From positions 1-64,000 of IMG/VR virus record IMGVR_UViG_3300033145_001136: a stretch of 64,000 nt of DNA; one strand, given 5' to 3'. A program made the position numbers and the translations under genes. Under the pieces are notes generated by a model. The model ran no database searches. It was not told the origin of the DNA and saw only the letters and a program-made list of their open reading frames with translations. The DNA comes from a virus. How positions within the stretch are numbered: the stretch's first letter is position 1; each line of letters begins with the position of its first letter. Below are positions 792-21,249 of this stretch, piece by piece.

Positions 792-810
792 GATCCAGTG
801 TCACCCCCTC

Positions 811-1167
811 CTATATCTCCAAGTGGAAGATTACGCCGGTACCTGTGCGACCCAGTATGTAGGTATGGGTCCCACTATCGTACGCATAGCATGCCGACCC
901 AGCTTTAGTTCGCCCACCAGCATCAGTGTCTGACAGACGATCTTGGGTGGAGTCGTAGTATACGGACGCAAAAGCGGCAATGTCATCCTCGAAGTATGCA
1001 GAGTATCGATAACCACCATGACCCAACAGGGTGATGGTATCTCCGATAGCTGCATCTTTGGACGCAATTCCGACGAAGTTATTGACGATTACGATCTGCC
1101 CTGAGCTGACCGCCACATCAGCAGTCCACGGCAAATCCTTAAAATTAAAATATCTTGTAACGGCCAT
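811..1167 (-). CDS. Capsid decoration (cement) protein, DUF2190-like
   Basis: 118 residues. The start overlaps the protease stop (TAATG), and a strong GGAGGTGA site sits inside the protease's last codons. The protein is beta-rich: a SGQIVIVNNFVGIASKDAA stretch, then IGDTITLLGHGGY, then an ASVYYDST segment and RTKAGSACYAY. This matches DUF2190-type capsid cement proteins (…FVGVA..di..Gd....l.G.f…vyyd…g…kiG.a), which sit on the outside of HK97-fold capsids and stabilise them. It lies between the prohead protease and the capsid gene, where phage decoration genes normally are. No transmembrane or signal segment is visible. I infer the function from the motif pattern and position. Confidence 0.75.
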   Translation of the reverse strand: MAVTRYFNFKDLPWTADVAVSSGQIVIVNNFVGIASKDAAIGDTITLLGHGGYRYSAYFEDDIAAFASVYYDSTQDRLSDTDAGGRTKAGSACYAYDSGTHTYILGRTGTGVIFHLEI

Positions 1168-2525: not shown

Positions 2526-2552
2526 ATCCTTAGTGAATGCGGTTCGTCAATA

Positions 2553-2612
2553 TTGAATCGGTACAATATTACATATTATATAGAACCCTATACATAATGC
2601 GTACCAATTCAA
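2553..2612. repeat. Nested inverted repeat between head genes
   Basis: In the 103-base gap between the protease gene and the upstream hypothetical gene, TTGAATCGGTAC (2553-2564) is matched by GTACCAATTCAA (2601-2612): 11 of 12 bases pair. Inside the 36-base spacer is a small second stem, TATAG (2579-2583) with CTATA (2588-2592) around an AACC loop. The region is AT-rich. It could be an RNA processing structure, a weak terminator or an operator. There is no T-run typical of an intrinsic terminator. Confidence 0.45.
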
Positions 2613-2628
2613 AATTATTATATCTACT

Positions 2629-3165
2629 CTACTTTGTAGCTGCATCTACTTGTATTGTAACTTTGTGACCCTTCTTAGATTCTCTTGCCGCACTTCCTTC
2701 ACGACTTACAACAGAACGTAGAGCATCTGTAAAGAGTTCACTAAACTTCCATCCATATCTATCTATGAATTTCTGTTTATCTTTATCATTTGGCGCGGTC
2801 ATAAGAATCTGCATCATACCAGGCGATGAATCCATAGATAGCTTAATCATTGAGATAAAATTATCGTCAGATACACCAGAAACTGGCATAGCGCCTTCAT
2901 ACGATTCTTGCAGTCCCTCTGCTATGATCATGTCCATAAGACTGGCGTCCTCACCAAGTGCTTCACGTATCTTCTTGGACATGCCGCCCTTTTTCTTCCG
3001 CTTATAATGCGCTATCGCAACTGCCCACGGATCTTTCGCTCCATCGCCCTTCGCTTTAATCCCTTCAGCCATCTTGGCTATGGAATTTGCGATAGATAGC
3101 GTAAGCCCATCCCCATACGCGTTTTTAATCCTAGCGGGAACCTTTCCTAATGAACTCCACGGCAT
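2629..3165 (-). CDS. Hypothetical head-region protein
   Basis: 178 residues from the ATG at 3165 (AAGGAG lies 6 bases upstream; an ATG one codon earlier at 3168 is also possible). The start overlaps the stop of the metalloprotease-like gene. The N-terminus, PWSSLGKVPARIKN followed by LTLSIANSIAKMAEGI and DPWAVAIAHYKRKKKG, resembles a short helical motif found in several phage head-cluster proteins, but I cannot name the family. The middle (residues 60-130) looks helical, and the C-terminus is basic. No catalytic motif is visible. Its place between the morphogenesis proteins and the protease suggests a head-assembly or internal-head role, which is inference only. Confidence 0.7.
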   Translation of the reverse strand: MPWSSLGKVPARIKNAYGDGLTLSIANSIAKMAEGIKAKGDGAKDPWAVAIAHYKRKKKGGMSKKIREALGEDASLMDMIIAEGLQESYEGAMPVSGVSDDNFISMIKLSMDSSPGMMQILMTAPNDKDKQKFIDRYGWKFSELFTDALRSVVSREGSAARESKKGHKVTIQVDAATK

Positions 3166-4151
3166 CATCTTCTCCTTTTGCTATCTTTTGGTTTCTTACG
3201 TTTTACCGCAGCTTTTTTAATGAGACGAACGCTTGCCGCAGCAGCAGCCGGTGTTAACATCGGCATAGCATGTAATACAAAAGCGGTGCGATTAGCTAGC
3301 TTAGTCCTTTTAAGTAACTCTTTACTTGCACCAGAAAGTCTTAAGTAATTTACTCCGCGTTTAGAAGCACTATATTCGTGCATTAAATGTGGTACACTAT
3401 ATGTCGCCAATGCAGCGGGTGTTAAATCACCAAATATACTAGTTGATGGTGTTAGTAGAGCAACCGCCAATCCACCTATGGCTACGCCACCTTTAGCCAT
3501 TCTGCTTCGTACCGCCAACGTACTTCTCTTTGGGCGATCTATAAATTGCCTTGCGTGACCTAGTTCGTGTGATAATACCCCAGCCCCACCGCCAAAATCT
3601 TGTCCAGCATACAACATACCGCCAGGATATTTCTTCGCCAAGATTGCAAATTCTGCCTCGCCAGTTATTTCGTGTGCCTGTCTTAGGGCTTTATTCGGAT
3701 AAAACGTACCGTCCATCCCCCACATCATATTTGAATCCATTGCGGCAGATCTAACATTAACCGCTACTCCCATCTTTTGTGCTCTAACCGCCAATCTATC
3801 GAATTGTTTGCGATCTGTCTCTTTAGACGCTAGCTCAAGTTCATGATATAATTTCTGTAGCTTACTTGTTCCTGGTAAAGATTTATATCCCACTTCTATC
3901 CGTCTATTTGGCATACCGTGTATTTTCTTTGGCTGACCTGGTTTAAAATACGGATTCTTTTTAAGTATGCCAAATTTATTATGTTTGCCCACCATAAATC
4001 CCTCAAACGCTGGTACTGTGGCCACTACTGTGCCAGCTACTTCACGTTTAATGGCACTTTCCCGTTTCTTTTTAAATTTGCCACCCGATCCCCTAGGATG
4101 TAGCTTCTCTTCCCAAGGCAAATGTCTTATGGCTTCTTGTAAAGTTAACAC
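3165..4151 (-). CDS. Putative zinc metallopeptidase in head cluster
   Basis: 328 residues with a GTG start at 4151 behind AGGGGGTG. The key motif is VLSHELGHARQF: an HExxH zinc site at residues 195-199. A possible third ligand is the glutamate in HEYSASKRG about 60 residues later, as in gluzincin-type enzymes. Hydrophobic segments follow the motif (around GGVAIGGLAVALLT and again near AMPMLTPAAAAAS), so membrane association is possible. Near the N-terminus the stretch LHPRGSGGKFKKK is a signature often seen in phage head-assembly proteins. The C-terminus is very basic. It may process virion proteins or act in the host after injection. The catalytic motif is clear, the substrate unknown. Confidence 0.65.
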   Translation of the reverse strand: MLTLQEAIRHLPWEEKLHPRGSGGKFKKKRESAIKREVAGTVVATVPAFEGFMVGKHNKFGILKKNPYFKPGQPKKIHGMPNRRIEVGYKSLPGTSKLQKLYHELELASKETDRKQFDRLAVRAQKMGVAVNVRSAAMDSNMMWGMDGTFYPNKALRQAHEITGEAEFAILAKKYPGGMLYAGQDFGGGAGVLSHELGHARQFIDRPKRSTLAVRSRMAKGGVAIGGLAVALLTPSTSIFGDLTPAALATYSVPHLMHEYSASKRGVNYLRLSGASKELLKRTKLANRTAFVLHAMPMLTPAAAAASVRLIKKAAVKRKKPKDSKRRR

Positions 4152-4795
4152 TATTTTACACCCCCTGCTACCGACGCATTTAATTTCTTCCTGGCTTTTC
4201 TCACACTTGCGGCACGTATTGAATCCGTGCGCGCTACATCTCTCGGGAATGCACGTCTCATATATTCGGTAAATCGCGCATCTCGTGCCTCTGCCTGTAA
4301 CAATAATACCTCTTCCGCTCTGCGCCTAACCCCTTGCCAATTTACATTTCTCGATGCATCCCGTCTCTCTGGTGTAATCGGAAAGAACATTAAATTACGA
4401 TATATAGCGACTTTCTTGCTGGTAGGTCCAACTCGCGTAGATACCGGAGGAGTAGTAGTAAAATAGCCGTGGAACCCCCTTGGATGTTTGCCCTCTTTCC
4501 AACGTGACAAATATGCCGGTTGTCTTGGCTTCCGTGGTTCTTGTTTTGCTTCAGTTATGATTTTGGGGTATCTAAACGACGGATCTAGCATAGACAATTG
4601 ACTAAATGCCTGACTAAATAACCGCTCTATATCTGTACGATGCTTATCAAGTAATACACGTTTCTGCTGTACTCCTTTTGCACTCTCAAGGAGCCGCACC
4701 AGATTTGGACTTAGCCCTCTTGCCCTATCCCAGAGTCGCTTATGCTCGGCAGCATTTAGAAATGGGTATATGTTCCAAGGTACTTTAGTAGCCAC
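4151..4795 (-). CDS. Hypothetical head-region protein with HPRG motif
   Basis: I chose the GTG at 4795 because GGAGG lies 8 bases upstream; an upstream ATG at 4828 has no such site. This gives 214 residues beginning VATKVPWNIYPFL (Met at initiation). The protein is basic and largely helical. It contains GKHPRGFHGYF, comparable with the HPRGSGGKF stretch of the next gene, a short motif common in phage head-completion or minor head proteins. The C-terminus is arginine/lysine-rich (ASVRKARKKLNASV). No enzyme motif is seen. It ends on the start of the metallopeptidase gene, so the two are probably translationally coupled. Function unknown; a minor virion protein is a reasonable guess. Confidence 0.7.
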   Translation of the reverse strand: MATKVPWNIYPFLNAAEHKRLWDRARGLSPNLVRLLESAKGVQQKRVLLDKHRTDIERLFSQAFSQLSMLDPSFRYPKIITEAKQEPRKPRQPAYLSRWKEGKHPRGFHGYFTTTPPVSTRVGPTSKKVAIYRNLMFFPITPERRDASRNVNWQGVRRRAEEVLLLQAEARDARFTEYMRRAFPRDVARTDSIRAASVRKARKKLNASVAGGVK

Positions 4796-4873
4796 AATAC
4801 TTACCTCCATTTTTAGTTTGGGATACACATTATAGGAGGAGTATATATTTAATAGTTACTGCTGGAGAATTAT

Positions 4874-7800
4874 TTACATGTATTCTCTCAATACCTGCGC
4901 CATGGTCTGCTGTACATACGCCACAACCTCAGGATAAAAGGAGTCAGTAGCGGCATCCACCACTAGCGTACTTGCTATATCTTTATCTATCCATCCATAT
5001 TGTCTATGTGAGTGTCCATCCTCAATAATCTTATTAACATTCGCCAAAATACGTTTCGGATCGAACCTGGAAGTAAGCTGTCCAGATTCTGCATATTTAC
5101 GTACCACTTCTTCGATAATGGTTTGTGTATGCAACACTGTATTTGTATCTCTGGCTAAACTACCTCGTACTAATTGATCTGCCCTATCTGGCGTCCTTAG
5201 TTTAATTAACTTCTTTGCCCACAACGCTTCTCTATCTAATGCGTCTACAGCGATACGATTAATACCGGATGTGCGAAATACCCTCTGAAGCATACCAAAA
5301 CTTATATTATCACCTCGCGACAATAATTCCAACTCAAGTTCTGTTTTCAGTCGTCCAAAATCACGTACCATATACCGTAATTCTTGCTTATTCATCCCTT
5401 GTATCATGTCCTGCGGTACACCATTATCAATCAACAAATTCCAGAGTTTTGGCTCCGAAAGCTTATTTAATTCTTGATATTGATAATCTATCTTTTCATA
5501 TGGTGAACGTATCTTTATTAATGTTGGTTTACCCTCACGCACGAAACTCATCCGTATTGCCTTCGGAAGCTTACCCTGTGCAACCTTCCAATCACCTGCC
5601 GCCTGTCCAAGTCGAGCCTTTGAGATATTTGGTAATTTTTGCGCCAGCAATTCTGCGGCAAGTTTTTCCTTATTAGATTGCGAGAAAATGCGAGCTATCT
5701 GTTCATGATATAATGATCTCTCCCTATCCCTCAATATCTGTACTAGATCGCCAATTGGCAACTTATCCCAACCCGTAGCTGGCTCCGGAGTAGCCATTCT
5801 TGTCAATCTATCTATTACCTCTGGTTTGTTCATCCCCACTATAGCACGTGTTCGTTCCAAATATTTCTCTACCTCATGTGCCTTTGCCATAATAGCCATA
5901 TCAGTCAATGTGTATTCATTAATGCCGTACATTTCCCCAGTATCTGTGATTGCTACTGTGATGTCGTGCTTTTTACCAGCCACATATCTCGGCAAATTTG
6001 TGATCCTTGTTAATTCTGGATTCTCTGCAACCGGAATTTGTGTTTCATCTAAAATAGAACCAATTCTTCTGCCTATTAATTCCGTAAATTTCGGATCTAA
6101 TTCATCGAACAAACGTGCCTGCGCCTCAGGCGTCATGTTATGCCAGAGCCTATCAATTTGCTCATCAAACACATCTGCAAGAGCCCTACTCTGGTAATCA
6201 GCCCCAAATACCGGCAAGTCTATTTGTCCCTCTGTCCCTAATGCGCGACGCCTATGTGTTAACATCATCCGTAGCCCCTGATCACTAATCTCTTCGAGGC
6301 TTGGTTCATGCCCAGATACATATCCATCAGATATTTTAACCAGATAAGATCGCGCTTCTTCGTTTTGCTCCATGATTTCTTCCCAACCACGGAACTGTTG
6401 CTTGTGTGCCAAGCCAGAATCTAACGCAGCCTTCTTGTGTGTGAGTTGGCCCTTAAATCCTTCTGTAGTGGCGGATCTGGTGCCATTCCATATAACGTCC
6501 TCTATTTCATCTGGATTAGGAGTTCGTCCTAGAACACGTTTCAAATAATCATATATTCGATCTATCGCCTTTGCGCCTGTAAGGGTTTCCCCTGTATTTG
6601 TAATAATTATCGATTCAGCTTCCAATAGAGTAATTGCCGGGATAACGGGTACTTGCTCCGCTACTGCTATCGCTAAGGCATCAAAGGGATGTGGGGTCAT
6701 AATTGCCCTGACCCACGAGGTTGCTCCAGAATCATCAGCTACATCACGAGCCATATCAAATCCAGAATCACGCAACGCCATATGCATTGCTGTTTCTGGT
6801 GGGTTATCTTCCAAATATCTGACAAGATTTCCATATATTTCTTCTGTAAAGGGTAAATCGGGATATTTGTCAGTAAACATTTTGCTTGCTTTTTCAAATC
6901 CAACATCCTTGCTACCAAATCCGAATTTGTGTAGCCCGGTAACTGTTTGTAGTAACCTCTGCTTTAAATTTGTTACATTTGATGCCTGAGCCAACCTAAT
7001 AACATCTTCTACGGTTTGTGATGCAGGCGATCTGCCAGCACGCTCTAATATGCGTGATCTACTAGCAGGATTCATCAGCATTTCCTGTGCAATCTTAAAT
7101 GGATTTGGTACCTGTGGAATAACCGCTGGCCCAAACGGCAATTTGCGTAACACGGATCTAGTCAACATCTGTTTAGCATAGGTACGCAACGATTCTCTAC
7201 CCCATGCTTTACTATATTCTATAGCATAATCCTTAGTCATCGCCCCGGCTATACGTGCGGCTATACCGGCTTTCTGAAGTTTGTTTTTTCTATCTTCGGC
7301 TCCACCAAAAAGCCCCGACCTTAATGTAGCCGCCTTACTTGGTCCAAGTATATCATTTTGATCTCCAGGATTCTTCCTAATAGCCCAGGCAAGCCACTGG
7401 TGCGATACTTTATCACGCTCCTCTTCATCGTACATTCTATCCAAATCTTCCAGACCTATTATTCGGATAGGCTTCATTCTATGCTTCTTCGGTTCATAGG
7501 TTGGTACAATACGTGATAATTCGTCAATTTGTTTTGTATCTAGTCCAATTAAGCGAAGCTCATGTAGCGAAACCAATATACCAACATACAAACACCTACA
7601 CTGCGAATGTGCCGGTATAGCTGGTCTTGGCTCTTCGAGCAAATATGTCTTACCCGCTAATGATCTGCAATGTTGACATGTATTACCATCCAATATCGTG
7701 ATCCTCTTAACCTTCTCAAATACATCGTTATTCTGCTGGTAGAAATCCTCCAAAGCAAGGTTAGCTCCAGCATATGATATATCTTTGGCCAAAATCTCTG

Positions 7801-10800
7801 CTTGCATCCGTGGATTAATCCCCTTTACAAGCACTTTACCATCTTCTTGATCCATAAATGAACGAATCAAATCATCTATCGCTGTAGTAACTGCTTTACC
7901 ATCTTTAATATCGCGCTCTAATTTATCAACCATATCCAACACACTAAAGCCACGTTGAATTTCGATATTTTTCCAATATGTATCTACTGGCAACCCTGCA
8001 ATGTTAACGTAGTCATTAATCCTCGCAACGCGCGCCTCAAGAAGCTTTGGATCCACTGTAAGTCTAATACCCGGCAATAGAGCTTCAACGTCCTGGCCAT
8101 GTATCTTAGTTATCGCGCGATACATACGCCCCATCGCATCTTCTACAGACCCACTCATTCTAGCAGTTATTCCACCATCAATCCCTTTCGCAGTTGCCCG
8201 CACCCATCTTTTGCTCCATGGCTCTATCTTTGGCATATCGTATGCTATCCACCGTCTTGGTAGTTTTCCACCAAGCACATCAACTACGTCCTTTTTTAAT
8301 CTATCAAATGCCTGTATTGCTCGTAAATCTCTATACACTGCATCACCATATAATTCCGCAAATTCTACAAATGCTTGTATCTGCGCTTCCGTAAACGGCG
8401 ATAATGTTGCACGCAGAAGCTTTACCAATGACGACCAAGCTGGCTCCACAATCTCATCAAGCTTATTGATAGCATACATCATGCGAATAGCTAGCCATGT
8501 CTCTTTATCTGCTACCCGTGTTTTCTGGAGGCTATAATCTAATACAGCTTGTTCGCGTGCTCGTACTAATTCATCGATCCGTGCCCTTCTATCTGTTTCT
8601 GTATGTAGCCCAAATTTGGCCTCGTGCTTCTCTATAGATATGAACTCTTCTTCCAACAGTTTAATTTGTGCATCTATCGTCGCTAATCTTGATTGCATAC
8701 CATTAAGCTCATTAAAGAATTTCTTAATAGTATCTGTTTGAACCTTTATATCAGAAAACTTCGTATATCGTATATTGTTAACCCCCTTAATTTGCCATTG
8801 TGTCCAGCTAATTCCTGTTAAATGCTCAACATCATCTACAATAGATTTAGCCCATGTAGCCCACCACTGCTCAGGAGCCAATTCTCGCAAATCATTATAC
8901 CCACTTGCTATGCCGTGCTCGAGATCTTTAATCTGTTTTAAAATCGGTGCCTCACGTTTACTAAGCTTAGCTGTCTTGTTTTCAATCTCTCGTATCCTAT
9001 CTGGTGTGAGCCTAAACCTGGTCTTACCATAGTGCTTATCTATCCATACCTGCTCCTCTGCAATGTCATCCTGAATCGACATAAGTTGTTCTTGTAATTT
9101 GGCTAATTGTTGCATTTTACGAGTAATCTGTGTCTCAACTCTATCGTAAAGTTCTGGTCGTCGTTCTGCAGTAACAGATATCTGACGTAGTTTCTGTTCC
9201 AGGGTCATATCCGGATTCATGCGCCACATTGCCTTTGCACGTGGGGCAGACTTAGTCTCATAATCGATTACCCACTCACCAAGCTTATCATCGAACTTAA
9301 ATAATTTAAGGTCTACTACCGCATTATCTGGGGCCTGCAATCTACTCAAAAATTTAATGATGTCTTCATGAGTGCGCATTCTATGTTGCAGGCTGGCCAG
9401 CTCGTCATCTAAGCGGGCTCGGCTCGATGTTAGCAACTCGCGATATTTCTCATATGGATATGCCGCATATAATTCGTCACGCACAATAGTCATGCGCCTC
9501 GATAAACGATCAATATTTGATTCCAAACCACGCACTTCTTGTAATCTCTGTATTAGTTTCTCATACTCAATTAAGTTAACTTGCTTACTAGGCATGGCTC
9601 GAATCTCTTTTAATCGCGCCAGAATAGTGGCATGTTCGGATGATTCCACAAACTTGCCATATTTTGCCTGTGCTGTTGCAAGTTGCTCCCGTACCATGTG
9701 ATACTGTTTACGCATAGTCTCGTTGGACATCTTTTGGACACCACGCTCAAAGTCCAGATCATCCAATTGTTTATTTAAACTGGCAGTGGCCCTACGCATA
9801 GTTGGATCTTTAATCGGCTCTACCAGATGCTGTGTTTGCCTAAATACAAAGTCTGCCTCTACTCCCTGTGCCTGATAGCTCTTAACCCATTCTCTACGCA
9901 CCTTGTCCATGTTTTCTAGTGCATCTAGTAATCCCTTACCTTCTTCGTTTCTTGTTAAAACTGCACGCCACTTACTGACTTTATAAAATTCCTTCGCGTA
10001 GTCCGCACCAGGGTATTCATCCATAATAATATCTATCATTTCAGTTTTAGTTAATTTGTTTATACGTCCTCGTACCCGGCTAAGCATTCTGCGCTCATTA
10101 GTTTGTGGGTCCTTTGTAGTCTGTATAAATTTTTTCAACGTCTCCTTGCTCTCAACCTTAAGCATAACTTCGTATCCATATGGGTCTCCCTTAGTTACCC
10201 ATGTCATAATATCACGCGCTCGTTGCAATTGTTCTGGCCGTGCCACTGTTTTATATATATCTTGCACTTTCTTTACGCGCTCGATAGCACTTATGTATGC
10301 CCTACCTTCAACACTTAAGCCAATCCGCCGCACCCCTCGTTCCATCCCTGCCTTTGTAATCCTGGCAAAGGCGTTCTCTGAAAAACCGAACTGCCAACCC
10401 GTAGGTCGTAACAATGCTGACGCACCAACACTATCCCGTACACCTGGCAAATATTTTGGTACCAGCCAATCTCCATCTTTATAGAGAGATGCTAACACTC
10501 GCGGCCCACCTATAATGCTCTTACGATATGTCGGATGTGTTTGTACGCCGGCTGCATTTATGATATCATGTACAACCCGTAATTTACCATCTTCTGTAAG
10601 ATATAACTTAAACGTACCTATGGCATCTGTCTTTACAAATTGCTCTGTAACCAAACTTTTAACCTTCACTGGCCCAAGGTTTAATTGTAATTCACCCCGC
10701 ATTAATTTAAGTCCCCAGGCTTTAAGATCCTTCTCCGGTAAACGTATTAAATCACCAAGTAGCTTATCAGCTCTTGTGATTGATACAACTGTACCATGTA

Positions 10801-13800
10801 GTTTCTTAATAGGCGCGAGCATCAATTTGGAATACGCTGTATATTCCCGTACATTTAGTCTAGAGAAGAGCTTATTAAGCTGCGACAACAGTAAATCTTC
10901 ATCCATAAATATCCGGATGGCTCGTTCGTGAAATTGTTTACCACGCGTAGAAATCCCAACAAGCCCCAATATCCTACGTATTGTCCTTGCTGCCTGTCTT
11001 TGTTCTTCAGTTGTACGAAACAGCGACGTATTTGCAAATGCATCTTCTATCATTTTCTGAAACATCGAGGTGGCTGGATCTAATATACTAACAATGCTTC
11101 TACGTCGCATGGCCACAGGGGCCAGTTTCATTTCTGCTTCCAATAATTCTTTAGCTGACCGCAATCGCTTACGAGATAGACTAGTAGGTTCTATAATCTG
11201 CGCAACCATATGTTCTCTGCTAATTCGGCTAATATCAATTAAACTCTCGATTTCGGAAGCATCAAGTAATCTACTACTCATATCAAATATGGCAATGTTG
11301 TGCTTGCGCGCATACTCAAATATTTCTCTATCACTCATCCTTGCTAGTTGTGTTTCTGTCGGCAAGGTCTTTATTCGCCTATTAATAATCCGCAACATAG
11401 CGGCCTTACCATCTTCTGTAGACGAAATTTCTGAAAATAGGTTCTCGGCTCCCTCCCTTAATACTCGCGTATTAATTAACTCTGGATGTAAACGATCTTT
11501 TTGTATTTCCGCAAATGTTGCTTCCACCTTAGCTAACATAGTTCTTTTAATCTGCTTCTCTATGTCTCTACTTCCCAATTTTAATTTATTAAATGCGTCT
11601 CTGCTAATGCCACGCCCTATTGCTACCCGTTCGTCGCCTACTATTTCACCTATTTCATCCGCATAAAGAAGCAATTTCTTCATGTCGTCTGGGGCTACAT
11701 CGTCTTCAAATACCCTATATAATTTCTTTGTGAACCGCTCACGATCGGCCATGATTCTTTTAAGATTATCTTGTTCTATTTTAATGTCCGATTTTAGTTT
11801 CGCAACTGTGGCTTTAGTTGTACTATCTGGTGCATCCTGTATGTACCGAGCCATTTGTGCTTTAGTCTCAGCAATTGTTTCATTAATAAGCTGTATGTCC
11901 CTATCATGCGTAGCTAGTTGTATTATGTCATCTCGCAATGTTTGCCATTTAATTATGCGCTGGATTTCTGATCTACCCATAAGATCTTCTACAAAATCTT
12001 TCGGAGACAATTGTACAAGATTGTCCACCAACATCAATCGCGCTACGATCTCCTCGTCCAGAAGCTGGACTAGATTTGCCTCAATAGTCTTATCATTAAT
12101 GCGTCTCATGCCCGCAATAAGACGATTCTTCTCTATCCCATATGCCCTAGAATGCTCCTGGAAATTATCCAATATGCTGATATAGTAGTTATGTGGTGCG
12201 AATAATTCGTCCTCCAATAATAGTAGTAACGCCTGCTGCTGTCTGAATATGTCAGTACCGTCTTGTATTTTCGTCAACATACTTTGTGTATAATCAAGCA
12301 TCTTACCTTGTAAGGCCGGTTTATCTATTTTCTCCACATATGTACGAAGTGCCTTAATACGCTGATCTAGTTGTAAAACTATGCGCTGTTGTAAAAGTTG
12401 TAATTCACCAATGTCTTTAACAGGGATTAATTTACGTGCAATTAATTCATCCAAATCACCAACAATAGCCGTAGAATCTGCTGTTAGCTTAGCCCGTAAT
12501 TCAGTAATTTTACTAACGTCCGCTGTTTTTGCTATGTCGTCCAGTATAATCAAAACATCTGTTTTTAGTGTATCTAGTGTAACCGTACGAACTGCATTTA
12601 TCCGCTTAACAATTTCTGTACGTAACTCCCGCTCTTTCTTTAGGGCATTAAATTTTTTAAGTAGCTGTTCAACACCAGCAAAATCTTGCTTAGCATATGC
12701 ATATCGTATTTGCCTAGATAAACGATCTAGTTTATTAAAGTGTGGCTCAATTACCTCATCCACCAACCCTCGAAGATCTCCACGCGTAAGCAATTGGATA
12801 GATTTCTTCCATTTGCCGATATCTTGCTTCCATTTATCCTTTATCGCATCCATATTACGTAAAGCGTGCCATTGCACCATAGATGCACGGAATTTTTCAT
12901 ATGCTAATGCTGGCATGGTCTCCACAGCGATTGTTTCTGCAACCGGAATATCGACCCCGAGATCAATTAATGCCGCAACCGTATCCTTAAGCGATAATTT
13001 TGAACTAATATCATGCGATTGCGCCAAGCGATCGATAACACGTTTCTGCAACACATCCGTTACAACTACCTCACGCCGCATCGCCGAAAAATGTTCCAAA
13101 TCTACAAAACGGATGGCGCTCCGAAATTCTGCGAGATTTGTCGAAAGATCTGCCGCTAATGCCGATCTGAGCTCGAGCAATGAGATTTGCTCTAGGCCAC
13201 GAATCGTCGAAATCCCCGACCGCCCCGCCATCACCCGAATCTGAAAATCATCCAGCTCCGCCAATACGGCCTTCAGATCATCTACTCCCATCCGATTTAG
13301 TGCCGAGGTTCGCTGCGGCATAATGTCAAAGAAATCAAACCCACTATCTATAAGATCTTCAATATGTGCTTGCACCGCAATGTCTGGGACTGTTTTTAAA
13401 GCTCCTCGTAATTTCCCGAGTTTTATAAATCGCTCTGGTAGTTTTGTAATGCGCCAATCATACCACGCTTGTCTAAGTTTATTCTGTACTACGATCCGTT
13501 GTTCAGCTATGGCTTTTTCAAATGCGTAATCTTTGTGTAACCCTTGTGCTATCGCTAATTTATGTTCCATAAATGGGTCAAACTTGATGCGAATCTGTTT
13601 TGTTCTCGGCTCGTACTTCTTGACAAATACACCAGTTTCCTTATCATATACAGAATGTGGTTGTGCCCTCCAGTATTTGGTGGGCATAGTATTGGCGGTA
13701 CGATCAAGCACACGTGTAAATTCTAGCAAGTCTTGAGAAGTAGTTGCTTTCGGATCGACAATCGACATATCAACAATATCATAGATGTGTGAAGGCAAAT

Positions 13801-16800
13801 CTTTTGGCGAGTATTTATAAGCTGGTACAGGACGAAGCAACGCTATTTTCGGACGTCGCTCATATTTTGGTACAGGGCGCACATCACCAGACACTGCTGG
13901 TTCATATATTTCATCCAAAAGAAATCCGCTAATCTTTGCTTCTGCGCTCGCAAACCCCACCCCACGCTCTGAAAATCTTTCTATCAACCCAGTTCTGCTG
14001 CGGAATTTCGGATCTTTCAGGATTCGTGCGATACGTTCCTTATCCTTATCTGCCAAAAATAAATCATATACCAAATGCTGGTCATCTTTGCCAAGTATAG
14101 CCAATGCGCCAATATCAGGCGGATTCGTTGGCCCCAATACCAATAACCCATTTAACTGCTCAATTGGCATCTTGTTCAATTTTTGAATCGGAATTTCTGG
14201 ATAAGCCAAGCGCGCTTTCGCAAGTAAAAACTGATAACGATGCCCAGTCAAGTTTTTCGACCGTACAAATCCAACTCGTTTTGACAACTGCTCTTGAACT
14301 CGCGCATCTTCAGCAGTAAATATCAGGTCTGAAAACGCCAATATCTCATCCTGTACAGATTTATATGTATCTACAAGAACGTTGTCGATAGCTGTCCGAT
14401 ATTCATGAATCGCAATGTCTACTTCTTCTGGCGTAGCAAATGTACCCCCGTATGTAATTAGTGGCTGTGTTTTTCGCACAATCTCCGATTGAAGAACAAC
14501 AGACATTTTTGGAGTAGGCCTAATCCCTTCTCCAGGAACCGCATCGTAGAAAATGTCTGCGGATTCATAAAATTTTAGTGTACCATCTGAGAAAGGGCCA
14601 TGTTTCTTAGTAAGTATATCATCTTCTAAACGATATCTGTCTTTTCCAAGGATTGGTTCGTGACTATATCTATCCGGTATATAGTGTTCAAATTCTGTTT
14701 CGACAATCATTTTAACACCATGATTGATTTTATCACCATCATATGTTAGATACGGACTTCGCTCTATATCTGAATATTCCGTAGTAGCGCTCAACCGTTT
14801 CATAACTTGATCTAACTTATCTTCTGCTTCACGTACGTCTGCCCACGCAGCACCGCCAGTATCTCGTGCAATATTGGTTAACCTCTGCACCTCCTGATGT
14901 ATAGTCTGCATCTGGTCCCGTAATTCTTTTTCAATAATATAGCTTGGACCAGTACCAAAATTAAATTCCTGCCTCGCTACCACCTCTGCCTCATGCAACA
15001 TCTTACCAAATAAATCCGGATTCTGTCCTGGTTGCCGCTCAGCAAGTGCAGCAATTCTATAATCTACCCTGGGACCGGGGCCATCGTCAGGAAACATGAA
15101 GAATGCAGATTGCGCACCTTCCGGCAACACTGGAATCCCATATTTCTCTATCATGCTATAATGCATACCTAATGGCGCTGTGCTCTGGATTTCTGGTTTA
15201 CCCAAAATCGTAGTAACTAATTCATCAGCTATATTGCGCCATTCATATGGGACTCTGACTGTACGAACATCATCAGGGGCATACGCAATCACCATATAAG
15301 CTGGTCTAACTGCCTCTGCATTAGTACGTGGTGCTCGTACCCCATCCACAAACATATCCATAGGGCGATTAGCCATTTCGATGCTACGTTCTATCTCTAT
15401 AACTGCATCGTTAAGTATTTGCTTTGATCTGGCCTGTGCTTCAACCAATGGCCCTAACTGATGATCAACTATTCTGGCATAATCCATCTGTGGACCAAAT
15501 GGATCTGGCGATGCGCCGAGTAATTGTATTGCCTGATCTACCGCCTCTTTATATTCGGGCGTATGTGGCGCAAGTATGCTTATACGTTCCATTATCACAC
15601 CGACCTCATCTAAAACACTCGCTGCCTCCTCTCTACGTAGCCGTAGATCTGCTTGTAAAGCTTCTAATCGCGTCAATACAGTCTGTCTACGTAGCTCATT
15701 ACGCCCGGCAGAAACCTCGCGTAACCTGGCTGCGTCCGCAAATGCAGATACTGTTTCTATTGGAATGCCACGATATAGTTGGTATGAGTCCGATGCCTTA
15801 GTTACTAGTTTATTTATGTGACTACGTTCTGTCTGTGTCTCAGAGATTAGTCGTTTTGTATTGAGAATCTCTGAATTCACTATCCGCGATTTATCTTCTA
15901 TTGCAATCAACCTATTTTTATACCGCGCCATATCTCGTAATTCTGGCTGTGCTTCAAATTTTGCCAATATTTCTGCGCGCTCATTAATTAAGTTTGTTAG
16001 TTCGTCTTCTGCGCTAGCTAATTCGGTCTGTGCCAATTGTAATCGCGAATCAAGCGCTGCCCCCTGCTCTGTGATTTCGTCAAGATTGTCTTTAAGACGA
16101 GTGGCATCCTCTAACATTTGTACACCAGCAACTCGCTCCGATACCTCTTGTCTCTTATTAACGGTAGTTACAATTGTATCCCAAAAATCACGCTCTACTG
16201 CAGCGACTTCATGCTTAAGTTCCCATTCATCAAGCGCAATGTGTAATTCCTTTAACTTTATTGGATCTTTTTCAATTGCAATTTGGTGTTGTAGTTCAGT
16301 AATTTTCTCCGATGCTCTAATATAGATGTTTAGCGGCCCTGCCTCCGGATCTGTTAGCCTACTCTGTATTAGCTCCCGCGTAATTGGTGTATTGGTTGAC
16401 CTAGCCCTACGCACCATGTCCTTAAATACTACTTCTCGTTGATCAAGAAGTCGGTTTTCTAATTGACGCCATCGAATAAGTAATTCCTGCTTAACTTGTG
16501 GTCTTGTTTCTAATGCCATCGCTGCTTGTACGGTCTTAAATTCGTGATATGTGGGCCGCACCAAGGTTTCAAGACGATATCTTGCCTCTTCAAACAATCC
16601 TTCCATATGAATATCGTCTAATCTTCGATATTTAATTTCTAATCCCTCATCTGCCTCATTTATAATACGATTGAATCTATCTACTAAATAAGTATGTCGC
16701 TGAGCAATATGGTCATGTACACTAGGTACGGTCTCCCCACCAATGTTAAGCCTGCCTAATGGGCCATCCGGGATCTCATTAATCCATATGGATTCTGCAA

Positions 16801-19174
16801 GTGATACCTGGCGTGCCGCAGCTTCTGGAATAATACGAGTCCGTACCATCTTGTCATCAACATAATGTGCAAGGTGTAATTCTGGAATATAATCTATGTC
16901 CGATAATATCAATATCTGTTCATGAACCGGTATTTTCGTATCGCGTAGTTCCTTAGCCAATAATTCAGACACCACAATCTTCCCATGCCCCTCTACTTCA
17001 CGCAATATGCGCCATTCTTTATTGAATTGTATGCGCACAAGCCGTTCATACTCTTCCCGCGTAACGGCTCTCCATTCCTCTTTCTTCATCGGATCGAGTT
17101 TATATCCAAGATTTCTGAGCCGTCGCTGGATTTCTACCTGCCGTTTTTCAATCTTAACAAGCTGCCGTTCTTCAGGAACTGTTAAGTCAATCACGCCAAC
17201 CCGCAATTGCTCTCTAAATGGTTCTGCTTCTATGTCCAGATTTAAAAATTCGTTGTTCATGTCTGCAAGCACACCACGAAATGCATCCGGGTCGACCGGA
17301 AACATCTTAGCCCCTTCAACCTCTTCAAGTGCATTAAACGCCACATCTATTGCTTCTTGTGACTTAATAATTGATGCATAATAATGCCCATTTGCCATTG
17401 ATATCGACAAATCCGAAGCATCCGTGATAACGTCACGAACTTTTTTGAACTCTTCAAGTGTGATAACGTCTATTTCATAACGAAGCTGCATTAACATATG
17501 TTCAAGTTTGCTAATATATGTTGGTGATGTCGCCTTTGATAAAGCACGCTCAACCTTTACGATGTCTGTCTCAGTATCTGCTACCCGAGACGCCCATACT
17601 AGCATCATTTGTTTTGCATCTGCCTCTGGTAGGATCTTTGTATTGGCCTCCATAACTTTTTGCATCACTGCAGTTCTATCTCGCACTGATACAAACTGTG
17701 TTTTCAAATTATCAATTTTATCTGGTTCTACACCGGCACGTATCAGTAATTCTAAGTCGTGTAGTCTAGCATCTTTTGTAGTATATGTATGTTCTACAAC
17801 CATGATTTCTGGTTTATTATCGAAACGCCCAACGCCCAGCATATTTCCATGTGCGTGTGCGTGCCTATATGTAGATGGCTCACGCGCAGCAACATCCGCA
17901 AATGGGGCAATAGATACACGCCTATCCGCTGGACTTACTTTCTTATTTACTTCCAATTCTTCTATACGTGCGCTTAGTAGCGCACGTTCATTCTCTATTG
18001 CTTCTGATGCCATATCTGTAATGCGTGACGGATCTAGGCCAAATTCAGAAGCGATCCTATTCACATCTTTTTCTGCGACCAACTGCTCAAATAATTTTAA
18101 TCGTTTCTTAGTATTGCTCAATGCAGGTTCGTAATGTTTTGCCCCAAGTGCGATGATCTCATCTGTTGTTGATAAGTCGTCTATTCGATCACGTAACTGC
18201 GCAATGTGCAAGTTTAGAAATTCATTATTTACATCCACGGCTGCAATATTAAATTCTTGCAATTGTTGTCTGGCAAGTTTAAGTTGCCCCTTATCAAAAG
18301 CTTGCTCTTTTATAGCAACGACAGAATCCAGACGCTCTTGTAAAGCCCTACGCCAATCCTGTCTTATGCGCTCAATCGTGATATGTTGGAATGAAGCCCA
18401 TTTCGAAGTGTGTAACACCTGTACATGTTGTAATTTACCATAATCACGCGCCATTTTATATACCGTATCACTAAGATCCTGTACTGACGCATGTCCTTTC
18501 TTACCTCTAATTCTGTATGCAAGTTCAGTCTCCTCGTTCACCGCACCAAAAAAACGATCGTAGTTACCCTCGAGAAATGCCGTGTCCGCATCTTTAATAT
18601 ACTCGTATACATCATCATAGTGCCCGTTATCTGTAACAAAAGCAATTTTACTTCCCCTATACTCCATAATAAATCCAACGGGTTCGGCAACATCGTGAGA
18701 CACAACAATCGGCCTAACCACAAATTCATTATTAAGTGTAGGGATTTTTTCATATCCCTTCGTACCAGTCTTGCGAATCTTTCTGTATGGCCCCAGCCGT
18801 TCCGCCTGCTCAGGTTTTAAATTTATAAATGTCCCATCGGTAGCATGTACAATTGGCACACGTAAACCAGCTTCTGCATGGGCCTCCTGTATGCTAATAA
18901 TGCTACGGATATGATCGGAGTGTTCGTGTGTAACCCAAATGGCCTGGAGCTGTGATTCTACTATCTTTCCTCGTTCAAGCCGGATCACACCTTCTTGTTG
19001 AAGCTTACGTTTCAATACATTAGGAGAAATGCCCGCATCTATTAAAACATATCCTTCCCTTGGAATTCTAATTAACATAGCATTACCAGAAGAGGAAGAT
19101 CCCAGAGACCTAAATAAAATATGGGTATTCTTTAGCTCTTCCTTAGATACTATCCGACTTGGAGGACTAGGCAT
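4874..19174 (-). CDS. Giant 4,766-residue head-region protein: metallo-beta-lactamase + Mu gpF-like domain
   Basis: A single uninterrupted 14.3 kb frame whose ATG overlaps the end of the portal gene. Residues about 20-290 form a metallo-beta-lactamase fold of the WalJ/YycJ kind: GSSSSGNAML, VTHEHSDH (HxHxDH metal site), VVSHDVAEPVGF, FVTDNGHYDD, KGHASVQDLS and a terminal LHTSKWAS. All expected metal ligands are present. Then come about 3,300 residues of mostly helical, charged sequence with a few globular islands. Near residue 3,831 DGNTCQHCRSLAGK and near 3,859 PAHSQCRC form the zinc-like motif that ends Mu gpF/SPP1 gp7 minor head domains. Another 900 residues follow. The position after portal suits a minor head protein. 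The architecture recalls 'polyvalent' proteins packaged in the virion and delivered with the DNA. The domain calls are good; delivery and enzyme activity are inference. Confidence 0.85.
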   Translation of the reverse strand: MPSPPSRIVSKEELKNTHILFRSLGSSSSGNAMLIRIPREGYVLIDAGISPNVLKRKLQQEGVIRLERGKIVESQLQAIWVTHEHSDHIRSIISIQEAHAEAGLRVPIVHATDGTFINLKPEQAERLGPYRKIRKTGTKGYEKIPTLNNEFVVRPIVVSHDVAEPVGFIMEYRGSKIAFVTDNGHYDDVYEYIKDADTAFLEGNYDRFFGAVNEETELAYRIRGKKGHASVQDLSDTVYKMARDYGKLQHVQVLHTSKWASFQHITIERIRQDWRRALQERLDSVVAIKEQAFDKGQLKLARQQLQEFNIAAVDVNNEFLNLHIAQLRDRIDDLSTTDEIIALGAKHYEPALSNTKKRLKLFEQLVAEKDVNRIASEFGLDPSRITDMASEAIENERALLSARIEELEVNKKVSPADRRVSIAPFADVAAREPSTYRHAHAHGNMLGVGRFDNKPEIMVVEHTYTTKDARLHDLELLIRAGVEPDKIDNLKTQFVSVRDRTAVMQKVMEANTKILPEADAKQMMLVWASRVADTETDIVKVERALSKATSPTYISKLEHMLMQLRYEIDVITLEEFKKVRDVITDASDLSISMANGHYYASIIKSQEAIDVAFNALEEVEGAKMFPVDPDAFRGVLADMNNEFLNLDIEAEPFREQLRVGVIDLTVPEERQLVKIEKRQVEIQRRLRNLGYKLDPMKKEEWRAVTREEYERLVRIQFNKEWRILREVEGHGKIVVSELLAKELRDTKIPVHEQILILSDIDYIPELHLAHYVDDKMVRTRIIPEAAARQVSLAESIWINEIPDGPLGRLNIGGETVPSVHDHIAQRHTYLVDRFNRIINEADEGLEIKYRRLDDIHMEGLFEEARYRLETLVRPTYHEFKTVQAAMALETRPQVKQELLIRWRQLENRLLDQREVVFKDMVRRARSTNTPITRELIQSRLTDPEAGPLNIYIRASEKITELQHQIAIEKDPIKLKELHIALDEWELKHEVAAVERDFWDTIVTTVNKRQEVSERVAGVQMLEDATRLKDNLDEITEQGAALDSRLQLAQTELASAEDELTNLINERAEILAKFEAQPELRDMARYKNRLIAIEDKSRIVNSEILNTKRLISETQTERSHINKLVTKASDSYQLYRGIPIETVSAFADAARLREVSAGRNELRRQTVLTRLEALQADLRLRREEAASVLDEVGVIMERISILAPHTPEYKEAVDQAIQLLGASPDPFGPQMDYARIVDHQLGPLVEAQARSKQILNDAVIEIERSIEMANRPMDMFVDGVRAPRTNAEAVRPAYMVIAYAPDDVRTVRVPYEWRNIADELVTTILGKPEIQSTAPLGMHYSMIEKYGIPVLPEGAQSAFFMFPDDGPGPRVDYRIAALAERQPGQNPDLFGKMLHEAEVVARQEFNFGTGPSYIIEKELRDQMQTIHQEVQRLTNIARDTGGAAWADVREAEDKLDQVMKRLSATTEYSDIERSPYLTYDGDKINHGVKMIVETEFEHYIPDRYSHEPILGKDRYRLEDDILTKKHGPFSDGTLKFYESADIFYDAVPGEGIRPTPKMSVVLQSEIVRKTQPLITYGGTFATPEEVDIAIHEYRTAIDNVLVDTYKSVQDEILAFSDLIFTAEDARVQEQLSKRVGFVRSKNLTGHRYQFLLAKARLAYPEIPIQKLNKMPIEQLNGLLVLGPTNPPDIGALAILGKDDQHLVYDLFLADKDKERIARILKDPKFRSRTGLIERFSERGVGFASAEAKISGFLLDEIYEPAVSGDVRPVPKYERRPKIALLRPVPAYKYSPKDLPSHIYDIVDMSIVDPKATTSQDLLEFTRVLDRTANTMPTKYWRAQPHSVYDKETGVFVKKYEPRTKQIRIKFDPFMEHKLAIAQGLHKDYAFEKAIAEQRIVVQNKLRQAWYDWRITKLPERFIKLGKLRGALKTVPDIAVQAHIEDLIDSGFDFFDIMPQRTSALNRMGVDDLKAVLAELDDFQIRVMAGRSGISTIRGLEQISLLELRSALAADLSTNLAEFRSAIRFVDLEHFSAMRREVVVTDVLQKRVIDRLAQSHDISSKLSLKDTVAALIDLGVDIPVAETIAVETMPALAYEKFRASMVQWHALRNMDAIKDKWKQDIGKWKKSIQLLTRGDLRGLVDEVIEPHFNKLDRLSRQIRYAYAKQDFAGVEQLLKKFNALKKERELRTEIVKRINAVRTVTLDTLKTDVLIILDDIAKTADVSKITELRAKLTADSTAIVGDLDELIARKLIPVKDIGELQLLQQRIVLQLDQRIKALRTYVEKIDKPALQGKMLDYTQSMLTKIQDGTDIFRQQQALLLLLEDELFAPHNYYISILDNFQEHSRAYGIEKNRLIAGMRRINDKTIEANLVQLLDEEIVARLMLVDNLVQLSPKDFVEDLMGRSEIQRIIKWQTLRDDIIQLATHDRDIQLINETIAETKAQMARYIQDAPDSTTKATVAKLKSDIKIEQDNLKRIMADRERFTKKLYRVFEDDVAPDDMKKLLLYADEIGEIVGDERVAIGRGISRDAFNKLKLGSRDIEKQIKRTMLAKVEATFAEIQKDRLHPELINTRVLREGAENLFSEISSTEDGKAAMLRIINRRIKTLPTETQLARMSDREIFEYARKHNIAIFDMSSRLLDASEIESLIDISRISREHMVAQIIEPTSLSRKRLRSAKELLEAEMKLAPVAMRRRSIVSILDPATSMFQKMIEDAFANTSLFRTTEEQRQAARTIRRILGLVGISTRGKQFHERAIRIFMDEDLLLSQLNKLFSRLNVREYTAYSKLMLAPIKKLHGTVVSITRADKLLGDLIRLPEKDLKAWGLKLMRGELQLNLGPVKVKSLVTEQFVKTDAIGTFKLYLTEDGKLRVVHDIINAAGVQTHPTYRKSIIGGPRVLASLYKDGDWLVPKYLPGVRDSVGASALLRPTGWQFGFSENAFARITKAGMERGVRRIGLSVEGRAYISAIERVKKVQDIYKTVARPEQLQRARDIMTWVTKGDPYGYEVMLKVESKETLKKFIQTTKDPQTNERRMLSRVRGRINKLTKTEMIDIIMDEYPGADYAKEFYKVSKWRAVLTRNEEGKGLLDALENMDKVRREWVKSYQAQGVEADFVFRQTQHLVEPIKDPTMRRATASLNKQLDDLDFERGVQKMSNETMRKQYHMVREQLATAQAKYGKFVESSEHATILARLKEIRAMPSKQVNLIEYEKLIQRLQEVRGLESNIDRLSRRMTIVRDELYAAYPYEKYRELLTSSRARLDDELASLQHRMRTHEDIIKFLSRLQAPDNAVVDLKLFKFDDKLGEWVIDYETKSAPRAKAMWRMNPDMTLEQKLRQISVTAERRPELYDRVETQITRKMQQLAKLQEQLMSIQDDIAEEQVWIDKHYGKTRFRLTPDRIREIENKTAKLSKREAPILKQIKDLEHGIASGYNDLRELAPEQWWATWAKSIVDDVEHLTGISWTQWQIKGVNNIRYTKFSDIKVQTDTIKKFFNELNGMQSRLATIDAQIKLLEEEFISIEKHEAKFGLHTETDRRARIDELVRAREQAVLDYSLQKTRVADKETWLAIRMMYAINKLDEIVEPAWSSLVKLLRATLSPFTEAQIQAFVEFAELYGDAVYRDLRAIQAFDRLKKDVVDVLGGKLPRRWIAYDMPKIEPWSKRWVRATAKGIDGGITARMSGSVEDAMGRMYRAITKIHGQDVEALLPGIRLTVDPKLLEARVARINDYVNIAGLPVDTYWKNIEIQRGFSVLDMVDKLERDIKDGKAVTTAIDDLIRSFMDQEDGKVLVKGINPRMQAEILAKDISYAGANLALEDFYQQNNDVFEKVKRITILDGNTCQHCRSLAGKTYLLEEPRPAIPAHSQCRCLYVGILVSLHELRLIGLDTKQIDELSRIVPTYEPKKHRMKPIRIIGLEDLDRMYDEEERDKVSHQWLAWAIRKNPGDQNDILGPSKAATLRSGLFGGAEDRKNKLQKAGIAARIAGAMTKDYAIEYSKAWGRESLRTYAKQMLTRSVLRKLPFGPAVIPQVPNPFKIAQEMLMNPASRSRILERAGRSPASQTVEDVIRLAQASNVTNLKQRLLQTVTGLHKFGFGSKDVGFEKASKMFTDKYPDLPFTEEIYGNLVRYLEDNPPETAMHMALRDSGFDMARDVADDSGATSWVRAIMTPHPFDALAIAVAEQVPVIPAITLLEAESIIITNTGETLTGAKAIDRIYDYLKRVLGRTPNPDEIEDVIWNGTRSATTEGFKGQLTHKKAALDSGLAHKQQFRGWEEIMEQNEEARSYLVKISDGYVSGHEPSLEEISDQGLRMMLTHRRRALGTEGQIDLPVFGADYQSRALADVFDEQIDRLWHNMTPEAQARLFDELDPKFTELIGRRIGSILDETQIPVAENPELTRITNLPRYVAGKKHDITVAITDTGEMYGINEYTLTDMAIMAKAHEVEKYLERTRAIVGMNKPEVIDRLTRMATPEPATGWDKLPIGDLVQILRDRERSLYHEQIARIFSQSNKEKLAAELLAQKLPNISKARLGQAAGDWKVAQGKLPKAIRMSFVREGKPTLIKIRSPYEKIDYQYQELNKLSEPKLWNLLIDNGVPQDMIQGMNKQELRYMVRDFGRLKTELELELLSRGDNISFGMLQRVFRTSGINRIAVDALDREALWAKKLIKLRTPDRADQLVRGSLARDTNTVLHTQTIIEEVVRKYAESGQLTSRFDPKRILANVNKIIEDGHSHRQYGWIDKDIASTLVVDAATDSFYPEVVAYVQQTMAQVLREYM

Positions 19175-21086
19175 CCAGTTTCTCTATATTCTTCTTCGCA
19201 ATAGCGAATATGCCAGAATCAATACCACCAATTAGTTCAGCCTCTGATAAAACCTGACTAAACCGTCGTGCCCGCTGTGTCAATGATTCCTGCTGTACCG
19301 ATTCCTTTAGGGGCTTTTTGCCCGTCCCTGTTTCCGCAGTAGCCATTGCCAATTCTGCCTCAGTTCTACGCATTGATATTTCTGAACCAAGCTGTAGCAA
19401 CGGATCAACATCCTGCATGGTCGCAGGGGCTCTAGGTAACGAACGTAAATGCTGCCCGGAAGGCACAGAACCGGAAGCGGAAAGTCCAGATAACGCCACC
19501 TGCGACTTCATGAGCTGCGCAAGTTCTACACCCTGCTCCTGCTCTATAAGCCTTGTCTCAGTGTTGTGATCCTGTCCAAGTATTGTCCTACCAGTCTGCT
19601 TCGAAGTCATCCGCGTCTCTACTAGTTGTGTAACCGCAGTAACCAATTCTGTAAATGACTCATCGTCAAGCCGTGGGAACTTAATCTGTAACATATTAAA
19701 TATATTTCGTTGCGTTGGTACTGGGTTACCTTCTTTATCATATATCATAACCTCCCACATTAGTGGAATATCGCGATAAGCTAGCGCCGCATATAATGGT
19801 ACTCTCATCATTCCCCTGTATCCGTACTGCCATAGATCCTGCCACGCTTCCATCATCTTAATAAAAGAGAATTTGGTAGCCTTTGCAGATGAGAAATTGC
19901 CATGCTCAATATTACCAGTTACCATAAATTCTGGTAAATCTGTGCCAGCAGTAGTTTGCAAATTAACTGCTCTAAGATCTGCTTCTGCATCGCCTGCATT
20001 GATTTGTGGAGTCGGATAACTAATTGTTACCGCACTTGAATGAACCTTAACTGTGCCTGGTCTTGGCTGATTTCTGTATTTTTGGGCCTCTGCTAGTACT
20101 TCATCTTTATCTCCCTCCACTGAAACATCCATCACATATGCCGTACGTGCCTTGTTCAATGTGACACGATTCTGCAGAAGCTGCTTATATTGTTTCATCC
20201 AGTATAATACTGAATGTAATGTGGGCATACCTCTACGCCTACGCGCCGCAGTTGGGGCTTTGAAATGGAATATGAATGATACCCACTCATTATTTGGAGC
20301 CAGTGATCCTTCTAGCCATGTTTCATCAAAATTCTTAACAGATGCGATTGCTACCTCTAGCATACGCTGATTTATCATCCCTCTGTCTGTAATAACATCT
20401 ACGCTGGGAATTAATTCGGTGCGCTCATCCCCGGAGTGTGCAACGGTATCACCATCCTGCTGTATTTTCGGTTTCCATTTTCTCTTATATAATACCACCG
20501 AGTCCTCATCACCGGGGAGAGTGATAAATCCCTTAATTTCTTCTGGGATGACCGATCGAATAGTAACATCCCCATTAATCGTATTTATCCAAAACCGCCA
20601 AAAATTTTCACCATCTAACTGAAACTGATTTGCGGACTCGACCAGGAATATTGGTAGCTTGTTATCCCATCGATCCCAAAATCTTTCTGCAACATCCTGG
20701 ATTAGAATCTCGTCTGACTTTGGCCGTACGCCTCTACCAGTCACGAATTTCGTATACGTAGACACAACTCGCTTTGCTTGCGGATTAAATCTCCATGCCT
20801 GCCACGAACCTCGCACTATTTTAAAATGATCGACATCAGATATTTGTCGCCCGGTTACAATTGCACTACCCGATGCATCTGACCATCCAACGTCCTCCAT
20901 GGACATTGATTGCAAATGCGATTCTGCAGACTCCCTGAGTAAGACTTCTCGATCATATGCTATTTCCTTAAGCAACATAAGCTGATCATTCAGTCTTTGC
21001 ATTTCCACAGATTTGCTTTCCTGCAATTCATCTAGTTCTGCCTTACGTACTAATCCGACTCTTTCCAGAATGTTCATTTTCGTCAC
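19167..21086 (-). CDS. Portal protein
   Basis: 639 residues. The frame opens with GTG at 21086, but an ATG three codons later (21077) is better spaced behind AGGTGA. Recognisable portal features are YTKFVTGRGVRP near the N-terminus, the QFQLDGENFWRFW segment, NRVTLNKARTAYVMDV (the long stem-helix region) and the later DLPEFMVTGNIEHGNFSSAKAT followed by FSFIKMMEAWQDLW, typical of dodecameric portals. The C-terminal 150 residues are Gln/Glu-rich and helical. It lies between terminase and the gpF-like giant protein, the canonical order terminase-portal-minor head protein. The portal forms the DNA entry vertex and docks the terminase motor. The call rests on pattern and gene order. Confidence 0.88.
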   Translation of the reverse strand: MTKMNILERVGLVRKAELDELQESKSVEMQRLNDQLMLLKEIAYDREVLLRESAESHLQSMSMEDVGWSDASGSAIVTGRQISDVDHFKIVRGSWQAWRFNPQAKRVVSTYTKFVTGRGVRPKSDEILIQDVAERFWDRWDNKLPIFLVESANQFQLDGENFWRFWINTINGDVTIRSVIPEEIKGFITLPGDEDSVVLYKRKWKPKIQQDGDTVAHSGDERTELIPSVDVITDRGMINQRMLEVAIASVKNFDETWLEGSLAPNNEWVSFIFHFKAPTAARRRRGMPTLHSVLYWMKQYKQLLQNRVTLNKARTAYVMDVSVEGDKDEVLAEAQKYRNQPRPGTVKVHSSAVTISYPTPQINAGDAEADLRAVNLQTTAGTDLPEFMVTGNIEHGNFSSAKATKFSFIKMMEAWQDLWQYGYRGMMRVPLYAALAYRDIPLMWEVMIYDKEGNPVPTQRNIFNMLQIKFPRLDDESFTELVTAVTQLVETRMTSKQTGRTILGQDHNTETRLIEQEQGVELAQLMKSQVALSGLSASGSVPSGQHLRSLPRAPATMQDVDPLLQLGSEISMRRTEAELAMATAETGTGKKPLKESVQQESLTQRARRFSQVLSEAELIGGIDSGIFAIAKKNIEKLDA

Positions 21087-21090: not shown

Positions 21091-21249
21091 TTAAGGTTTA
21101 TAGCGATTATTCCTGACCTCTTCGCTGAAACGCGAAAGCGATCGACACTTTTTATTGCAATATAGCTTTTGGTCAAAGTGATAGTTGCTGAAGCAATCTT
21201 CTCGTTTTATTTCAGCTCCACAATATTTACACTGCTTAACAGAAACCAT
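21091..21249 (-). CDS. Small zinc-ribbon protein (52 residues)
   Basis: A short gene filling the gap between terminase and portal. Its ATG at 21249 overlaps the terminase stop (TAATG), and its TAA is at 21091-21093, just ahead of the portal start. The protein starts MVSVKQCKYCGAEIKRED and contains QKLYCNKKCRSLSRF. The four cysteines, C-x2-C and, about 20 residues later, C-x3-C followed by R, predict one structural zinc. The same C..C / YC...CR pattern occurs twice in the sigma-like protein upstream. Tight coupling on both sides supports a real gene. It may bind nucleic acid or assist packaging; function unknown. Confidence 0.75.
   Translation of the reverse strand: MVSVKQCKYCGAEIKREDCFSNYHFDQKLYCNKKCRSLSRFSEEVRNNRYKP

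Follow-up and report, generated by a model that had tools for sequence, protein, structure and literature searches.

A 4,766-residue phage protein that joins a metallo-beta-lactamase-type domain to a portal-associated MuF head domain

The giant gene within its head operon

The viral record is 102,947 bases long; the analysed window covers its first 64,000 and contains a minus-strand head operon, read in the order TerL, portal, giant gene, four further genes, decoration protein and ClpP-like protease/head protein (Table 1). The record is probably incomplete, given that its end truncates the last head gene and that no tail genes were identified among the genes searched.

Table 1. Coordinates of the giant gene, its parts and the neighbouring head genes
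Feature	Position	Strand	Size or residues	Remarks
Giant gene	4874..19174	minus	4,766 aa	MBL, orphan middle, MuF, orphan C-terminus
Metallo-beta-lactamase (MBL) domain, predicted phosphodiesterase type	18332..19120	minus	~19-281	all metal ligands kept; cysteine 0
Middle region	8063..18331	minus	~282-3704	helix-favouring composition; cysteine 0
MuF/gpF-type head domain	7304..8062	minus	~3705-3957	
Zinc-knuckle-like motif CQHC...HSQCRC	7592..7678	minus	3833-3861	holds the chain's only four cysteines
C-terminal region	4877..7303	minus	~3958-4766	without recognisable homologue
Portal protein	19167-21086	minus	639 aa	cysteine 0; PHROG_10963 2.4e-29
TerL (terminase large subunit)	21249-22991	minus	580 aa	15 cysteines; PHROG_2 2.1e-12
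Four head-operon genes	4151-4828, 3165-4151, 2629-3168, 1167-2525	minus		mostly unknown function; cysteine-free
Head decoration protein	811-1167	minus		PHROG_122 6e-13
ClpP-like head maturation protease/major head protein	3-791	minus		PHROG_4523 3.4e-52; cut by record end

The giant frame starts with ATG, runs for 14.3 kb and has its sole stop at the end, and the plus strand across the same stretch is full of stops. Scoring by codon usage, with the phage's remaining genes as the training set, put this frame ahead of the five others in every one of 30 overlapping windows of 300 codons; it is therefore unlike several falsely joined genes. The false fusion that the first-pass annotation had named as fatal to its reading was dropped, as the coding signal lay in this frame throughout. 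The gene thus encodes one unbroken protein that joins an MBL domain to a portal-associated MuF head protein, and the frame, the coding windows and the PHROG and Pfam matches all agree with the earlier description of a head-region protein of this length carrying an MBL and a gpF-like motif.

The MuF domain matched PHROG_241 (6.5e-16) and PHROG_115 (6.9e-10), and the Pfam model PF04233 remained below its cutoff (0.0011). PaMx74, Elanor, ZQG1 and others have MuF proteins that align with this domain. The end of the portal gene overlaps the start of the giant gene by 8 nt, and a MuF gene that adjoins and overlaps the portal gene was also observed in PaMx74, Elanor and ZQG1; a place beside the portal is usual for MuF genes. 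Both the sequence match and the portal-adjoining position of a MuF/gpF minor head protein were thus found, in line with the gpF-like motif that had been read near residue 3,840 of a gene following the portal. The layout of MuF polymorphic toxins, with an N-terminal MuF domain and a C-terminal toxin, was not observed: the domain is preceded by some 3,700 residues and followed by some 800, and Pfam and PHROG searches revealed no toxin domain after it.

The remainder of the chain gave no matches. Neither the middle of about 3,400 residues nor the C-terminal 800 or so matched anything in Pfam, PHROG or the other homology searches, and the middle returned nothing from 50,697 phage records even at E<=1. 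A sequence search of the whole chain against the PDB gave no match, and internal repeats were absent. An AlphaFold model of residues 1230-1930, computed from the single sequence without relatives, was uninformative (pLDDT 36). The "about 3,300 mostly helical residues" previously placed between the two domains are closer to 3,400, and the word helical describes their composition alone.

The MBL domain and the relatives of both domains

The MBL domain matched PHROG_392 (5.5e-26) and the Pfam models PF12706 (1.8e-12, above cutoff) and PF00753 (1.2e-8). The ligand motifs HEHSDH, SHD, TDN, GHAS and LHTS are retained, and residues H83, H85, D87, H88, H160, D182, H228 and H255 are invariant in comparison to the homologues; the metal ligands expected from the motifs noticed earlier (HEHSDH, SHD, TDNG and GHAS) are all present in the alignments. 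The AlphaFold model built with 27 viral homologues reached a pLDDT of 87, and its fold neighbours in the PDB were PqqB, PNGM-1, YhfI, RNase Z and PhnP, with Apyc1 at rank 41, which corresponds to the wider RNase Z/class II phosphodiesterase group. With this fold and a complete HxHxDH-H-D-H metal site, as in RNase Z/WalJ-type enzymes, the domain is predicted from alignment and model to be a metal-dependent phosphodiesterase.

The nearest sequence relatives were YycJ/WalJ-type proteins and MBLs of recombination modules. In the MBL tree, the fused domain stood alone on a branch of about 3.9 changes per site and could not be placed among either the bacterial WalJ-like or the recombination-module MBLs. 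The label "WalJ-like" of the first-pass annotation was thus correct at the family level, but the long branch and the breadth of the fold group mean that the substrate cannot be read from this name, and, given the length of the branch, the function of the family may not carry over. Membership in the Apyc1 family was considered and dropped, as the profile match was weak (6.5e-5) and several other MBL proteins scored better in both sequence and fold. Membership in a defence system was likewise dropped; the best PADLOC match, LmuA (9.5e-5), covered the generic MBL core alone.

Among the best 80 MBL-matching viral contigs, the MBL almost invariably stood alone, as a protein of about 230-320 residues. 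The exception (L094) was a 489-aa frame (8268-9737) that is extended at the C-terminus and lies in a phage locus with SbcC, and in one of the 80 loci (L015) the MBL could not be read as a single frame. An SbcC-like gene was present in 68 of these 80 loci and an annealase gene just before the MBL in many, a neighbourhood that suggests DNA-end processing by the stand-alone proteins. The present phage encodes RecA and a fused SbcD-SbcC-like protein, a 1,149-aa chain (40631-44080) consisting of a calcineurin-like phosphoesterase and an SbcC/Rad50-like ATPase. A second MBL was not found in the phage, nor was an annealase with the seeds used. In the case of Porphyromonas phage005b, a gene annotated as an anti-Pycsar nuclease (Apyc1-like; 5923-6765) lies directly after SbcC-like and RecT genes; this annotation may be wrong, because the context is that of the 68 loci.

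The best 80 MuF-matching viral contigs contained MuF frames of 218-737 residues, with 113-323 residues ahead of the motif, and their loci showed no MBL; the giant exceeds these relatives 6- to 20-fold in length. Across the two sets of 80 best viral relatives there was no MBL-MuF fusion, as judged from loci that extend no further than 10 kb from the match, scanned by exact peptide patterns, which rarer fusions may escape. When viral contigs were scanned with one protein at a time (the giant, the portal and TerL), no relative of the whole protein emerged, and an MBL scan of bacterial genomes yielded none. The plasmid search matched the MBL part alone, a single Sodalis locus came from scanning genomes for MuF, and none of the 12 loci returned by a TCQHC...GK pattern scan was a convincing MuF gene. 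Comparison of the C-terminal half with 27 viral records produced MuF matches only.

Cysteine content of the chain

The four cysteines of the giant chain (3833, 3836, 3859 and 3861) all lie in the MuF knuckle. At the rate of the non-head proteins of the phage (1.63%), about 77 more would be expected, and the chance of finding none outside the knuckle is approximately 10^-34, assuming independent draws and comparing with non-head proteins only. The six other head genes together encode one cysteine in 1,941 residues, in comparison to 15 in the 580 residues of TerL. TerL is the packaging motor and is absent from mature virions. The stand-alone MBL homologues had at least 2 cysteines in 63 of 63 cases (mean 4.6), whereas the fused domain has none; among the sites affected are four at which a cysteine occurs in 11-18 of 27 homologues.

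A similar distribution was observed in other phages. The N4 virion RNA polymerase (3,500 aa) and five further N4-type virion RNA polymerases (3,264-3,632 aa for all six) contain no cysteine, and neither do T7 gp15 and gp16, in comparison to 12 in the T7 RNA polymerase and 10 in the T7 DNA polymerase. The absence of cysteine from N4-like polymerases has been noted before and was tied to passage through the tail and periplasm (PMC3715699). P1 does not conform, as its injected protein DarB contains 9 cysteines (0.40%), close to the content of a cytosolic P1 protein (0.41%). Cysteine content thus separated virion from cytosolic proteins in the N4-type phages, T7 and the present phage, but not in P1.

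Like injected giants, the chain runs for thousands of residues with no cysteine except in a metal motif, a correlate drawn from a few phages and not a formal definition. The pattern agrees with exit of the chain through the tail, and a chain free of cysteine throughout, MBL included, is what would be expected if the whole of it were packaged and injected, a reading that the pattern supports. Low cysteine is a mark of virion proteins in general, the portal and its neighbours being free of it too, and alone is therefore no proof of injection. As a hint obtainable from sequence only, the pattern could nevertheless mark injected or virion giants; if this holds, metagenomic sequence by itself would allow one to ask which giant phage proteins are packaged.

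A proposed role for the fusion and its alternatives

We propose that the giant is a virion-packaged, injected MuF fusion whose MBL cuts phosphodiester bonds, likely at DNA ends; taken as a whole, we regard this proposal as evenly poised between right and wrong. The packaging, injection, catalysis and substrate that we infer would proceed as follows. A MuF minor head protein of the Mu gpF/SPP1 gp7 type would form the base of the giant virion protein, and its MuF domain would anchor a small number of chains at the portal within the procapsid. The roughly 3,700 residues ahead of the MuF domain, MBL first, would then sit inside the head. At infection, the chain would exit with the DNA via the tail, a passage that would explain its near-total lack of cysteine. 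In the new cell, the MBL would cut phosphodiester bonds, most likely at DNA ends, to judge from the genes found around its stand-alone relatives. In SPP1, the portal recruits a small number of gp7 molecules to the procapsid interior, and gp7 helps infection to get started (PMC6316719); by analogy, the MuF domain of the giant most likely acts likewise. Several results count against the proposal: cysteine is scarce in virion proteins at large, injected P1 DarB breaks the pattern, the MBL stands on a very long branch, the seeds used found no annealase in the phage, the middle matches nothing, and no second genome with the fusion was found.

Fusions to MuF domains (PMC5576092) and phage polyvalent proteins (PMC5512222) are already known kinds of protein. 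Mu gpF, SPP1 gp7 and the MuF polymorphic toxins (PMC5576092) resemble the giant in the MuF domain, in a gene that comes right after the portal and in the fusion of a head protein to an enzyme-like domain. However, in known MuF proteins the extension follows an N-terminal MuF domain, whereas here some 3,700 residues with an MBL cargo precede it. Polyvalent proteins are likewise very large (often over 2,000 aa), encoded in portal/terminase operons and predicted to be packaged and injected, and the giant agrees with them in size and context. In contrast, they carry several effector domains, and Pfam and PHROG searches, which may have missed further domains, recognised the MBL alone besides MuF in the giant; conversely, the polyvalent survey describes no MBL (the word "lactamase" is absent from PMC5512222). 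The earlier suggestion of polyvalent effectors riding with the DNA was partly supported, by the MuF position, the MBL active site and the virion-type cysteine-free chain, but no effector beyond the MBL was recognised. The N4-type virion RNA polymerase (gp50) is also a giant, cysteine-free, enzyme-bearing chain, with a different enzyme, no MuF anchor and podovirus ejection; its injection is known from experiment, that of the giant predicted. The PHROG_392/WalJ (YycJ)-like MBLs, including those of the phage SbcC-annealase-MBL module, belong to the same family and have the same ligands, but they are free proteins, less divergent and with cysteines. Apyc1, a phage-encoded class II MBL phosphodiesterase with the HxHxDH motif (PMC9117128), is free-standing as well. 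As far as we found, the MBL cargo, its N-terminal position and the giant size are new.

Alternative readings differ in where the chain ends up and what the MBL does there. It could be packaged without being injected, as an internal head or portal-vertex structural protein whose MBL has a part in assembly, such as acting on DNA ends during packaging, or is a remnant fold. Cysteine is also missing from adjacent head proteins for which injection is not assumed, and the MuF domain is itself structural; nevertheless, retention of every metal ligand on so divergent a branch argues for a working site, and the 3,700 residues before the MuF domain far exceed the distance seen in the 80 MuF relatives, so that we consider this reading rather unlikely. 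Injected counter-defence, in which the MBL would destroy cyclic-nucleotide immune signals like Apyc1, appears unlikely as well. Delivery with the DNA, before phage gene expression, would suit pre-emptive action, and the cyclic-nucleotide phosphodiesterases YhfI and Apyc1 are among the fold neighbours, but Apyc1 ranks low in fold and profile, behind several other MBL proteins, and the closest sequence relatives are of the YycJ/WalJ and recombination-module types.

It is still less probable that the head maturation protease or another peptidase cuts the chain into parts that act separately, with perhaps MuF alone in virions. Zincin-like peptidases have been proposed to process polyvalent proteins (PMC5512222), processing in the course of head maturation has been noted for P1 DarA, and the operon of the giant encodes a ClpP-like protease/head protein. 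However, no cleavage site was identified, and the MBL and the middle are as cysteine-free as the MuF flanks, which would be unexpected of parts kept in the producing cell. An assembly or sequencing error that joined several genes is very improbable, even for a single metagenomic record whose fusion was found in no second genome, as several independent errors would be required to yield the stop-free frame, its coding windows and the uniform absence of cysteine.

Returning to the packaged and injected fusion, we tentatively envisage the MBL enzyme as tethered by an arm of about 3,400 residues to a portal-bound MuF domain and preloaded in the head, the cysteine-free chain of about 4,800 residues being injected; this falls somewhat short of an even chance. 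With similar reserve, such a tethered, injected MBL may represent the N4 virion-polymerase strategy with another enzyme and another anchor. If true, MuF head proteins would carry very large N-terminal cargo, beyond C-terminal toxins, and an MBL-type phosphodiesterase would join the enzymes that phages deliver with their DNA.

Several other genes of the phage were recorded. A run of sugar/glycosyl-, aminotransferase- and methyltransferase-like genes, few of which were searched, lies between the packaging and replication genes (26210-39405) and is apparently a surface-modification or small-molecule cluster. Within it (28383-31251), apparent phosphonate biosynthesis genes encode a phosphoenolpyruvate mutase that also contains a fused cytidylyltransferase-like domain (TIGR02320 1.2e-111, above cutoff), a phosphonopyruvate decarboxylase-like protein in separate halves and an alcohol dehydrogenase-like protein of the phosphonate type. 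An adenylosuccinate synthetase-like protein (record positions 73563-74666) also matched PurZ with 221.9 bits (cutoff 300), and a modified-base (Z) genome is possible on this match. The B12-dependent ribonucleotide reductase (51376-56343; 1,655 aa) contains apparent inteins, with N- and C-terminal splicing models matching at approximately 1006-1420 and a second insertion likely near residues 350-700.
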